The translations under genes were made by a program, and so were the position numbers. A stretch of 32,637 nt of DNA from Desulfuromonadales bacterium GWC2_61_20 (GTDB taxonomy: Bacteria > Desulfobacterota > Desulfuromonadia > Desulfuromonadales > UBA2197), in contig MGTO01000140.1 of assembly GCA_001799485.1 (NCBI GenBank), forward strand, positions 1-32,637. Direction: 5' to 3'. Below the pieces are notes generated by a model. It had not been told where the DNA came from. It ran no database searches and saw only the letters and a list, made by a program, of their open reading frames with translations. The first letter of the stretch is position 1. Each line of letters opens with the position of its first letter. Shown here in pieces: positions 26,666 to 32,166 of this stretch.

Positions 26666-26837
26666 GGATGGACTCCTTGCTGAGGGATTGACGGAACCGC
26701 TGCATTATTCCCTTTTTTGCCGCCGCTGCAAAGCTGAAAACGCATAAACGCTCCGCCAGTACCCGGCGGAGGCGCACCTGTGGCACAATGGAGCGAGAAG
26801 ATTCCCCCGGCCTCACCCTTGCGACGGGAGGTTGTTT

Positions 26838-27419
26838 ATGCAACGACTGCTGATACTTACCCTGTTTCTGCTCCTTGGCGCCGGCGGCGCCCGGGCCGAC
26901 ACGGCGATCTTCGCCGGCGGCTGCTTCTGGTGCATGGAGGCGGATTTCGAAAAACTCCCCGGCGTCGGTGAGGTCGTCTCCGGCTTCACCGGCGGCACCC
27001 TGAAAAATCCGACCTACAACGGCAACCACGCCGGGCATTACGAGGCGGTCGCGGTCAACTACGACCCCAAGCTGGTCGGCTACCGGCAGCTCCTCGACTA
27101 CTACTGGCGGCACATCGACCCCTTCGATGCCGGCGGCCAGTTCTGCGACCGCGGCGAGAGCTACCGGACGGCAATCTTCGTCGCCAATGCCAGCGAGCGG
27201 ACCCTCGCCGAGGAATCGAAGCGCCAGGTCGCCGCCCGCTTTCCGGAACAGACCATCGTCACGCCGATTCTCGCCACTGCGACCTTCTACCCGATTCAGG
27301 GGGAGGAGAGCTATCACCAGGACTTCTACAAGAAGAGTTCGCTCCGCTACCAGTACTACCGCCGGAGCTGCGGACGGGATGAGCGGGTCAAGGCGATCTG
27401 GGGAGATACGGGGCACTGA
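26838..27419 (+). CDS. msrA: Peptide-methionine (S)-S-oxide reductase, probably exported
   Basis: Signal peptide [20 protein letters not shown]; catalytic [22 protein letters not shown]-like [23 protein letters not shown] 6 nt before ATG. Confidence 0.92.
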
Positions 27420-27478: not shown

Positions 27479-27982
27479 ATGACTACGAAAAAATATGCGC
27501 GGGCCGAGCCCACCCAGGTCGCCACCCTGGCCGGCGGCTGCTTCTGGGGGATGGAGGATCTGCTGCGCCAACAGCCGGGGGTGATCGCCACCGAGGTCGG
27601 CTACACCGGCGGCAACGTGGCCAACGCCACCTACCGCAACCACGAGGGGCACGCCGAGGCGGTGCGCATCGAATTCGACCCGACCAAGACCAGCTTCGCG
27701 GCTCTGCTGCGCTTCTTCTTCCGCATGCACGACCCGACCACCCGCAATCGCCAGGGGAACGACGTCGGCTCCAGCTACCGCAGCGCCATCTTCTATCACG
27801 ACGCCGAGCAGCAGCGCATCGCCGAGCAGGTCAAAGCCGAGGTCGACGCTAGCGGCAAGTGGTCGCGGCCGCTCGTGACCGAAATCGTCCCGGCCGGGCT
27901 CTGGTGGCGGGCCGAAGAGGAGCATCAGGATTATCTGGTCAAGAACCCGGGCGGGTATACTTGCCATTGGGTGCGGGAGTAG
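27479..27982 (+). CDS. msrA: Peptide-methionine (S)-S-oxide reductase, probably cytosolic
   Basis: [50 protein letters not shown]; no signal peptide. Confidence 0.95.
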
Positions 27983-28679: not shown

Positions 28680-28729
28680 ATCGTAACTTGAAAGGCGGCC
28701 CCCAAGATGGCCGCCTTTCAAGTTACGAT
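28680..28729. terminator. Long perfect hairpin (possible terminator)
   Basis: ATCGTAACTTGAAAGGCGGCC / GGCCGCCTTTCAAGTTACGAT, 21-bp perfect stem, 8-nt loop, just after the DUF2442 gene. Confidence 0.6.
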
Positions 28730-28790
28730 GCTGAATAAATACGTCCCGTTTTCGTCTATTTCATCCCCTCATCTCAGCGAGCCAGCAACC

Positions 28791-29174
28791 ATGACCCGAA
28801 CTCACAGCACTCCCGTCGGCTACATCCTCTGGATTTTCGGTTTCATCGGCGCGCACCGCTTCTACTTCGGCCGCCCGATCAGCGGCACCATCTGGTTCTG
28901 CACCCTCGGGCTGCTCGGCATCGGCTGGCTGATCGACCTGTTCCTGATCCCCGGCATGAACCGCGACGCCGCCACCCGCTACCGCATCGGCCCCTACGAC
29001 TACACCGTCGCCTGGGTGCTGCTCACCTTCCTCGGCCTGTTCGGCGTTCACCGCTTCTACCTGGGCAAATGGATCAGCGGCCTGATCTACCTGCTGACCG
29101 GCGGCCTGTTATTGCTCGGCGTGTTGTACGATCTGTGGACACTGAATGGGCAGGTGGACGAGCGGAACCGGTAG
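28791..29174 (+). CDS. TM2-domain membrane protein with two TM2 modules
   Basis: GYILWIFGFIGAHRFYFGRPISGTIW...LIDLFLIPGM and LLTFLGLFGVHRFYLGKWISGLIYLL...LYDLWTLN. Confidence 0.88.
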   Translation: MTRTHSTPVGYILWIFGFIGAHRFYFGRPISGTIWFCTLGLLGIGWLIDLFLIPGMNRDAATRYRIGPYDYTVAWVLLTFLGLFGVHRFYLGKWISGLIYLLTGGLLLLGVLYDLWTLNGQVDERNR

Positions 29175-30038: not shown

Positions 30039-30083
30039 GGTGCCTTCCTCCTCAGACAAAGGGTGATGGCCGCCCCAACACGA

Positions 30084-30108
30084 AGGCCGCGGGAAATACC
30101 CGCGGCCT
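30084..30108 (-). promoter_or_regulatory. Leader hairpin 2
   Basis: 10-bp stem AGGCCGCGGG/CCCGCGGCCT, 5-nt loop, 46 nt before the MBL-fold start on the minus strand. Confidence 0.7.
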
Positions 30109-30123
30109 CGTGAGATGCAAAAG

Positions 30124-30146
30124 AGCGCGGGCTTGTGGCCCGCGCT
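30124..30146 (-). promoter_or_regulatory. Leader hairpin 1 (followed by CTTTTGC on the minus strand)
   Basis: 9-bp stem AGCGCGGGC/GCCCGCGCT, 5-nt loop. Confidence 0.7.
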
Positions 30147-30151
30147 TCCGG

Positions 30152-30223
30152 TTATCGGCAGCGCAGAGCCGTCACAAAGGTGACGACTGCGACGACGGTG
30201 GTGGTGATGGGGTTGGTGATCAT
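30152..30223 (-). CDS. Putative attenuator leader peptide MITNPITTTVVAVVTFVTALRCR (23 aa)
   Basis: ATG at 30223, TAA at 30152; 6 Thr, 5 Val and 2 Ile out of 23 residues; followed by two GC-rich hairpins and preceded by a strong promoter. Not in the supplied ORF track. Confidence 0.65.
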   Translation of the reverse strand: MITNPITTTVVAVVTFVTALRCR

Positions 30224-30229
30224 GCCAAG

Positions 30230-30258
30230 GTTGTAAGGTATTTTCGTCTGCCTGTCAA
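30230..30258 (-). promoter_or_regulatory. Sigma70-type promoter for the leader peptide/MBL transcript
   Basis: Minus strand TTGACA (30258-30253) -17 bp- TACAAC (30235-30230), only 6 nt before the leader ATG. Confidence 0.7.
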
Positions 30259-30280
30259 TGCGCTGAAGAAAACTGCCTCT

Positions 30281-30339
30281 TTAACGGTACCCCTCGTCAT
30301 GGCTGCCGATGTCGAGGGGGACGATCTCGCGTTCAGTGA
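30281..30339 (-). pseudogene. Truncated 3' fragment of a RelE/ParE-type toxin gene
   Basis: Minus strand encodes TEREIVPLDIGSHDEGYR-stop, matching TEREIVLLDIGSHDEVYR-stop of the intact toxin at 31891-32166; 52 of 59 nt identical by hand alignment. Confidence 0.75.
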
Positions 30340-30497: not shown

Positions 30498-31772
30498 ATG
30501 AAACCCTGGAAACAGCTCATCACCGACTCCCTGGAGCGCGACTATTCCCGAGTCATGCCGCGTGACCTCGAAATTCCTCTCGATTCCGGCAAAATCATTT
30601 CCCTGATCGGTGTCCGCCGCAGCGGCAAGACCAATATCCTCTACTCCCTGATCCATCGGCTGCGCCAGACAATGCCGGCGGATACACTTGTCTATATCAA
30701 CCTCGAAGACGACCGTCTCTTTCCCTTGACTCCGCACGATCTGGGAGGATTCCTCGACGCCTACTTCGAGTTGTTTCCGCACAACCGCGACCGGCGGGTC
30801 TACTTTTTCTTCGACGAAATTCAGAACGCGCCGGAATGGGAACGCTTTATCCGCCGCCTGCACGATACGGAAAACTGCTCCGTCTTTGTCACCGGTTCTT
30901 CGGCCAAGTTGCTCAGCCGGGAGATTGCCACCTCCCTGCGCGGCCGCACGATCCCCTTCGAGGTTTTTCCCCTCTCCTTCAGCGAATACCTCCGCTTTCG
31001 CGAGATCAAGCCGGGTCACTCGTCGCGCGCCGTATCATTGCTCAAAAACGCCTTTGCCGAGTACTGCCGCACCGGCGGTTTTCCCGAAACCGCCGGGGTC
31101 GACGACCTGCGGGCCAAGCAGATTCTGCACGAATATCTGCAGATGATCATGTATCGCGATGTTGCCGAGCGCCACAGTGTCGGCAATCTCTTTCTGCTCA
31201 AATCGCTGATCAAGCATTGTTTCGCCAATATTGCCAATCCCCTCAGCCTCTCCAAGTTGTACAACGATTTCCGCTCACAGGGGATGCAGCTGTCGCGCAA
31301 TACTCTTTTTGACTATATCTCCTACCTTGAGGACGCTTACGCCCTCTTTCTCGTCCCCGTCAACTCCCCGTCACAACGGGAAGTCATGCGCAATCCCCGC
31401 AAGCTTTACGCCATTGATCACGGATTGAAAGGGGTCGTTGACCTGGCGACCGGCAACGATAGCGGCAGAATTTTCGAGAACATCGTTTTTCTCCAATTGC
31501 GCCGGCAAGGGCAGAACATCTGTTACGGCCGGCAAAAACAGGAGATCGATTTTGTCCTGCCCGAGAGTGAATCGCCACGACTGATCAATGTCGCCTACGA
31601 TATTTCCGCGCTCGAGACCAGAAACCGTGAGTTGAATGGGCTGGTTGAAGGGATGCAGGGACTTGGCGTCCAGGAGGCGCTGCTGCTGACCGCCGAGGTG
31701 GAGGAGACCGTTACGACGGCGGCAGGCAAGATCACCATCCTGCCGCTTTGGAAGTGGCTGGCGGGAGTGTGA
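30498..31772 (+). CDS. AAA family ATPase with DUF4143 C-terminal domain
   Basis: SLIGVRRSGKTNILYSLIHRL (Walker A), VYFFFDEIQNAPEWERFIRRLHD, VFVTGSSAKLLSREIATSLRGRTIPFEVFPLSFSEYL; C-terminal GRQKQEIDFVLP. Confidence 0.94.
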   Translation: MKPWKQLITDSLERDYSRVMPRDLEIPLDSGKIISLIGVRRSGKTNILYSLIHRLRQTMPADTLVYINLEDDRLFPLTPHDLGGFLDAYFELFPHNRDRRVYFFFDEIQNAPEWERFIRRLHDTENCSVFVTGSSAKLLSREIATSLRGRTIPFEVFPLSFSEYLRFREIKPGHSSRAVSLLKNAFAEYCRTGGFPETAGVDDLRAKQILHEYLQMIMYRDVAERHSVGNLFLLKSLIKHCFANIANPLSLSKLYNDFRSQGMQLSRNTLFDYISYLEDAYALFLVPVNSPSQREVMRNPRKLYAIDHGLKGVVDLATGNDSGRIFENIVFLQLRRQGQNICYGRQKQEIDFVLPESESPRLINVAYDISALETRNRELNGLVEGMQGLGVQEALLLTAEVEETVTTAAGKITILPLWKWLAGV

Positions 31773-31822: not shown

Positions 31823-31890
31823 TTGAAGAATGGAGAGTTGACCCCTTAGTGGCTCCTTGAAGAATGGAGAGTTGACCCCTTAGTGGCTCC
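31823..31890. repeat. Perfect 34-bp tandem duplication
   Basis: TTGAAGAATGGAGAGTTGACCCCTTAGTGGCTCC at 31823-31856 and again at 31857-31890. Confidence 0.93.
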
Positions 31891-32166
31891 TTAGCGGTAG
31901 ACCTCGTCATGACTGCCGATGTCGAGGAGAACGATCTCGCGTTCGGTGATCAGCAGGGTCAGGGTGATGCGGTAGGAATAGGTCAGCCTGACGGCATGGC
32001 ATTTGGCAAGCTTGCCGGAAAGTTGATGCAGTCCGAGGCTCGGCTGAAACGGATCCTCTTTGAGAGCCTCGAAGAGCGCGGCGAGGCGAGGCTTGAGGTC
32101 AGGGGGCTGCTTGAAGAATTTCCGTGCCTGGCGGAGGAACTGCTCCGACGTGGTAACGGTGAACAC
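31891..32166 (-). CDS. RelE/ParE superfamily (YafQ/RelE-type) toxin
   Basis: MFTVTTSEQFLRQARKFFKQPPDLKPRLAALFEAL...KCHAVRLTYSYRITLTLLITEREIVLLDIGSHDEVYR. Confidence 0.92.
   Translation of the reverse strand: MFTVTTSEQFLRQARKFFKQPPDLKPRLAALFEALKEDPFQPSLGLHQLSGKLAKCHAVRLTYSYRITLTLLITEREIVLLDIGSHDEVYR

Follow-up and report, generated by a model that had tools for sequence, protein, structure and literature searches.

A candidate valine-responsive attenuator with an MBL-fold hydrolase gene as its target in Desulfuromonadales bacterium GWC2_61_20

Why should a short reading frame rich in threonine and valine, followed by two GC hairpins, stand in front of a gene for an MBL-fold hydrolase? Amino-acid attenuators normally lie 5' of genes that make the amino acid in question, and the initial annotation of this locus offered two readings: either the hydrolase gene is under amino-acid-responsive attenuation, or the leader is a relic left after the original biosynthetic genes were replaced. 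We analysed contig MGTO01000140.1 from position 1 to 32,637 (32,637 nt, hereafter the window) together with related genomes. The best explanation of the region is an attenuator of transcription that depends on translation of the leader, responds to the supply of valine and governs a monocistronic gene for an MBL-fold hydrolase; we consider this reading probable as a whole on comparative grounds. The hydrolase gene would probably be turned on at valine shortage.

The succession of 23-codon leader ORF, two hairpins and MBL gene was confirmed. Three things had been overlooked: a protector hairpin, the promoter with its spacing, and the true leader stop of the relatives (TGA, 30174-30172). The features of the locus are as follows.

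30230..30258, minus strand: predicted sigma70-type promoter, TTGACA-N17-TACAAC, strong; the -10 hexamer ends 6 nt before the leader ATG
30152..30223, minus strand: leader peptide ORF MITNPITTTVVAVVTFVTALRCR, 23 codons, ATG 30223-30221, stop TAA 30154-30152
30168..30187, minus strand: protector hairpin (helix 1, segments 1:2), GUCGUCAC/GUGACGGC, arms 30187-30180 and 30175-30168
30172..30178, minus strand: extra T (within TTT 30178-30176; alignment A3, column 19) and the conserved TGA, out of frame
30160..30170, minus strand: segment 2, 5' side of the antiterminator, GGCUCUGCGCU
30137..30146, minus strand: segment 3, 3' side of the antiterminator and 5' arm of terminator 1, AGCGCGGGCC
30117..30146, minus strand: terminator 1 (segments 3:4) with U-tract CUUUUGC; terminator-like score
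30084..30108, minus strand: hairpin 2 (segments 5:6), AGGCCGCGGG/CCCGCGGCCT, 10 bp
30045..30052, minus strand: Shine-Dalgarno-like sequence of the MBL gene, AGGAGGAA
29193..30038, minus strand: MBL-fold metallo-hydrolase gene, 281 aa (PF00753, E = 9.5e-22)

Hairpin 1 (AGCGCGGGC/GCCCGCGCT, 30146-30124) has 9 bp and the tail CTTTTGC and scores as a terminator-like site; an intrinsic terminator with a U-tract is present 5' of the structural gene. Hairpin 2 is a second terminator with a U-tract in most relatives and has a weak tail (UUCGUGUU), that is, a poor U-tract, in the window. The fold of the 186-nt leader is better than those of its shuffles by 5 SD. The pairing noted earlier between the end of the leader frame and hairpin 1 is present and longer than described, with 30170-30160 facing 30146-30137. 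The MBL reading frame is intact with all of its metal-binding motifs (THSHPDH, PGHSAGS and CGDAV), and the protein reaches the cut-off of no specific NCBIfam family.

Relatives of the element and their helices

The closest MBL homolog in our genome collection is that of Pelotalea chapellei (Geobacteraceae), with 65% identity and the same leader, hairpins and promoter. When the Pelotalea leader was used as a blind BLASTN query, 17 of 279 genomes of the class matched; since the query recovers the window (E = 1.5e-25) as well as other genomes, the element goes beyond chance. A covariance model built from 17 copies and run over the 279 genomes gave 46 clear matches in 45 of them. Earlier BLAST matches to the leader in relatives (L003-L010) were rejected as chance low-complexity hits that fall within different coding frames or at other places: in L003, a second coding sequence overlaps the Thr/Val-rich frame, and the ORF in L009 lies at a repeated contig end behind an apparent regulator gene. 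ACC/GTC repeats by themselves yield such chance matches.

The gene directly adjoining the element is ilvB-like in 33 of the 46 cases and MBL in 10 (shortened in one, in genome G235). The remaining three comprise a truncated MBL gene (G199), a locus with no target (G208) and a contig end. Among the 28 strong matches outside the training alignment, ilvB lies directly downstream in 25. All MBL homologs of the class above 50% identity carry the leader and the five below 50% do not; at distant MBL homologs the leader was absent from 82 of 83 scanned loci. A search for plasmid-borne copies of the element found none. Some cassettes are decaying: in G235 (L204) the MBL gene is cut short beside a transposase-like ORF, and in G199 (L208) the truncated MBL gene follows an intact leader.

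The ilvB linkage is to a second, stand-alone acetolactate synthase gene. One leader-linked ilvB protein reaches the cut-off of TIGR00118 (biosynthetic-type acetolactate synthase large subunit), and each of the 13 leader-ilvB genomes tested holds another ilvB as well, at about 51-55% identity; two genomes without the leader have only the usual ilvB. At the leader-ilvB loci that we read at length, no adjoining ilvN or other ilv gene was recognised, as judged by ORFs only. The main target of the attenuator in this class is the second, apparently stand-alone IlvB. The second IlvB proteins (e.g., of G194, G187 and G015) share about 68-83% identity with the query copy, and the usual IlvB shares 51-55% with it.

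We aligned the 46 sequences with MAFFT, blind to structure (alignment A3). Helices 1:2, 3:4 and 5:6 are paired in 94.1% of cells, compared with 41-54% in slid controls, and helix 1:2 by itself in 97.5%. Eleven pairs of the three helices changed on both sides, and doubly changed cells number 32 where shuffles give 5.7; in hairpin 2, 6 of 10 pairs show such changes. The antiterminator 2:3 is paired in 89.7% of cells (slid controls, 24-50%) and has 16 doubly changed cells against 7.8 in shuffles, although the number of its pairs with double changes, two, is not above shuffles. Part of the 2:3 pairing is expected from conservation of the terminator, since segment 3 is common to both. Column pair 29:88 (G-C in 24, A-U in 10 and G-U in 8 sequences) is independent evidence for the antiterminator, because column 88 lies outside the terminator helix. 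When the region of segments 2 and 3 is folded alone, the antiterminator is the predicted structure in 43 of 46 sequences (mean z, -3.2), and in the window its predicted energy is -22.8 kcal/mol, versus -19.3 kcal/mol for terminator 1. Pairing 4:5 occurs in 90.9% of cells and is partly implied by 3:4 and 5:6. Protector, antiterminator and terminator are mutually exclusive and conserved with covariation, as in a classical branched-chain amino acid (BCAA)/ilv attenuator. Attenuation through mutually exclusive stems, the tie to ilv and the MBL-fold target, as first proposed, are therefore supported by the relatives, whose alignment shows ORF and stems to be conserved and the helices to carry compensatory changes.

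A search of the whole phylum gave weak matches to the model (L222-L243, 33-55 bits), which are other attenuator-like leaders with a tandem terminator layout. Among them, WWW-rich peptides precede genes for anthranilate synthase (trpE) and for DAHP synthase, a TrpB-like gene is also a target, and in L242 a VVVVVV leader stands 5' of a different ilvB. As the same layout recurs before all of these genes, a serial two-terminator design of attenuators is suggested to be common across the phylum.

Codons, start and stop of the leader

The control amino acid had been given as threonine or valine. Over 46 leaders (812 residues), valine makes up 33%, leucine 14% and threonine 9%, and valine is encoded by four synonymous codons (GTC, GTA, GTT and GTG). 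Valine runs are 3-8 residues long in all ilvB-linked leaders and 2-5 in MBL-linked leaders, and they reach the stop or end a few codons before it (VVVVVTM*, VVVVVVT*, VVAVVTL*; VVAVVTFVT in the window). The codon content and the place of the runs point to valine, and not threonine, as the main signal of the attenuator.

The two branches of the element differ in how the leader begins. Each of the 11 MBL-type copies has its first in-frame ATG 6-8 nt downstream of the -10 hexamer; a Shine-Dalgarno pattern test is negative in 10 of these, and what it flags in the eleventh is the -10 box. A Shine-Dalgarno-like site is present in every one of the 33 ilvB-type copies, 32 of which have 20-27 nt between -10 and start codon (for the remaining copy, the scan picked a different promoter). 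With a start codon this close to the -10 hexamer and no Shine-Dalgarno site, the leader mRNA of the MBL branch should be leaderless, although the MBL copies are of one origin and their counts are not independent events. The element offers a natural comparison of Shine-Dalgarno (ilvB) and leaderless (MBL) starts in one and the same attenuator.

In nearly all relatives, the leader ends at a conserved TGA between segments 1 and 2, where a terminating ribosome would cover segment 2. This placement is lost in the window. At column 19, where the other 45 rows have a gap, its row carries an additional T, which falls in the protector loop. This 1-nt insertion puts the TGA out of frame, so that the leader reads through segment 2 as far as the TAA at 30154-30152, shortly before position 30146, where the antiterminator/terminator arm starts. 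Ribosomes that terminate at this TAA would be expected to occlude part of segment 3 and to hinder terminator 1; the insertion may thus weaken the window's own switching. An error in the assembly of this incomplete MAG may also account for the additional T.

Proposed mechanism and competing readings

In the mechanism that we propose, transcription would start at the leader AUG or within a nucleotide or two of it, and the ribosome would begin on a leaderless mRNA. When Val-tRNA is scarce, the ribosome would stall on the valine codons in segment 1, leaving segment 2 to pair with segment 3. This pairing would block terminator 3:4 and free segment 4 for segment 5, and the polymerase would reach the hydrolase gene. 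When valine is plentiful, the ribosome would arrive at the stop between segments 1 and 2 and cover segment 2, so that terminator 3:4 could form, with 5:6 as a back-up. Without translation, 1:2 would form and lead to termination as well. In the window, the insertion would send the ribosome through segment 2 to the TAA near segment 3, and termination at high valine would be weaker.

Two other accounts of the locus fare poorly. That it consists of two ordinary tandem terminators and a chance low-complexity ORF draws on the ease with which ACC/GTC repeats find matches elsewhere by chance, but it is refuted by conservation of the whole element, by ilvB or MBL downstream, by the kept frame and stop, and by the covarying helices, and we regard it as hardly credible. 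Direct sensing of a ligand or tRNA, by a riboswitch or a T-box, would fit a structured 5' leader preceding a biosynthetic gene, as it does in relatives. Against this, no Rfam covariance model matched the window leader or the scanned relatives at the gathering score (only sub-threshold, unrelated matches were seen), nothing was found for the window's leader at E <= 1, and a Val-rich ORF is conserved that ends at a fixed place relative to the helices; direct sensing is very improbable.

The remaining alternatives concern what the switch does in the window. As an explanation of the element in general, the relic option is disfavoured, because valine codons and antiterminator are retained in nine intact MBL copies, down to ~50% amino acid identity, the antiterminator of one subgroup through a compensatory change. 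For the window's own copy, which has lost the conserved leader stop, relic status is possible: the element would be functional in relatives and would here leave the MBL gene with a promoter that is constitutive or poorly regulated. The insertion unique among 46, which moves the stop to just before terminator 1, the degraded second U-tract and the degenerate copies elsewhere (MBL truncated in G199, lost in G208 and cut short in G235) speak for such decay, whereas promoter, valine codons and pairings 1:2, 2:3 and 3:4 are intact, the antiterminator is strong in the predicted fold, and the MBL frame keeps its metal-binding motifs. On balance, we think decay of this copy unlikely, though not far-fetched. 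It is similarly doubtful that valine regulation of the MBL gene is an accident with no metabolic logic, the gene having landed downstream of an ilvB-type attenuator that is mobile. We know of no biochemical link between the enzyme and valine, and the one origin and varying neighbours of the MBL genes would suit such a capture; yet the features of an attenuator, and not a promoter alone, have been retained over a large divergence, and the antiterminator of the L115/L130 subgroup shows a compensatory change. Valine-responsive attenuation of the hydrolase gene remains our preferred reading. Beyond it, we suggest tentatively, and with more doubt than conviction, that this hydrolase family, shared with methanogens, is an unrecognised part of the valine/BCAA economy of these bacteria and that the transplanted, leaderless-switched attenuator and its gene travel as a cassette.

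The element has the structure by which a classical ilv attenuator is defined, except for the displaced stop and the non-biosynthetic target gene in the window; most of its relatives do precede ilvB. The enterobacterial ilvL and ivbL leaders carry BCAA codons and a ribosome-binding site, follow the logic of protector, antiterminator and terminator, and target ilv operons. Logic and BCAA codons are common to them and the present element; the sequences are unrelated as far as the Rfam scan goes. The attenuator of Corynebacterium glutamicum ilvBNC (ilvB-II motif; PMC11857589, PMC10272879) is alike in its Val-rich leader peptide (MTIIRLVVVTARRLP), its three-hairpin switch and its ilvB target, and its start site lies one nucleotide from the leader start codon (PMC11857589). 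It is actinobacterial and serves the ilvBNC operon, whereas the present element targets an MBL-fold gene in the window, adds a second terminator hairpin and matches no Rfam family. In Sinorhizobium meliloti, the attenuator leader peptide trpL is translated from a leaderless mRNA that starts with the ATG (PMC7298713), as predicted here, but trpL responds to tryptophan, controls trpE(G) and is a different RNA. The ilvB-OMG and ilvB (Leptospira) motifs are ilvB-linked RNAs with BCAA/Thr-rich uORFs and are proposed attenuators (PMC10272879); compared through the Rfam library only, the window and scanned relatives match neither. Of what has been published, these two and ilvB-II, as ilvB-linked motifs with uORFs rich in BCAA codons, come nearest in kind to the present element (PMC10272879). 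A literature search, with most subscription journals outside its scope, found no attenuated MBL gene and no Geobacter ilvB attenuator or leader of this kind. The element represents an RNA family spread across one bacterial class and absent from Rfam.

Origin and surroundings of the MBL copies

A tree of 92 MBL proteins places the nine whose genes bear the leader in one group (support, 85/63; one change versus 8.7 in shuffles), which sits beside mainly methanogen sequences. With this moderate support, the attenuator would have been attached to the MBL gene once. We envisage that the element descends from, or has a common ancestor with, the second-ilvB attenuator of the same class, that it was joined a single time to an MBL gene whose family is common among methanogens, and that the pair then moved between lineages. 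The window's protein groups with those of G259 and Pelotalea (99/79) despite the different order to which its genome belongs. Because all other MBL-leader genomes lie outside that order, either transfer of the cassette is likely or the contig is mis-binned. The question of mis-binning is left undecided by the penicillin-binding protein encoded nearby, whose closeness to the window's family (62-63%) and to other families (58-61%) is about the same.

The neighbours of the MBL gene vary between genomes, and synteny gave no clue to what the hydrolase does. The sole recurrent one is a YefM/RelE-type pair, which lies upstream in the window, G143 and G235, the other two RelE proteins being 49% and 82% identical to the window's. 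The leader-MBL pair looks to have been kept together across different genomic surroundings, and this, with the transplant onto an MBL-fold hydrolase, looks new, as does the predicted leaderless start in the MBL branch. Here a well-conserved attenuator has come to precede the gene of an unrelated enzyme and has retained the parts of its switch, which gives a direct lead on the function of this uncharacterised hydrolase.

The window holds several further repeats. A 66-nt direct repeat (30274-30339 and 31884-31949, 86% identical) stems from the RelE/YafQ-type toxin gene (31891-32166), whose 3' end is duplicated across an AAA_14/DUF4143 ATPase gene (30498-31772) that is placed as if inserted between the copies. 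Between the ATPase and toxin genes lies a perfect 34-bp tandem duplication (31823-31890, two copies of TTGAAGAATGGAGAGTTGACCCCTTAGTGGCTCC). A perfect 21-bp inverted repeat with an 8-nt spacer (28680-28729) adjoins a TM2-domain gene (28707-29174), and two adjacent tandem genes (26832-27419 and 27479-27982) carry MsrA-like motifs.
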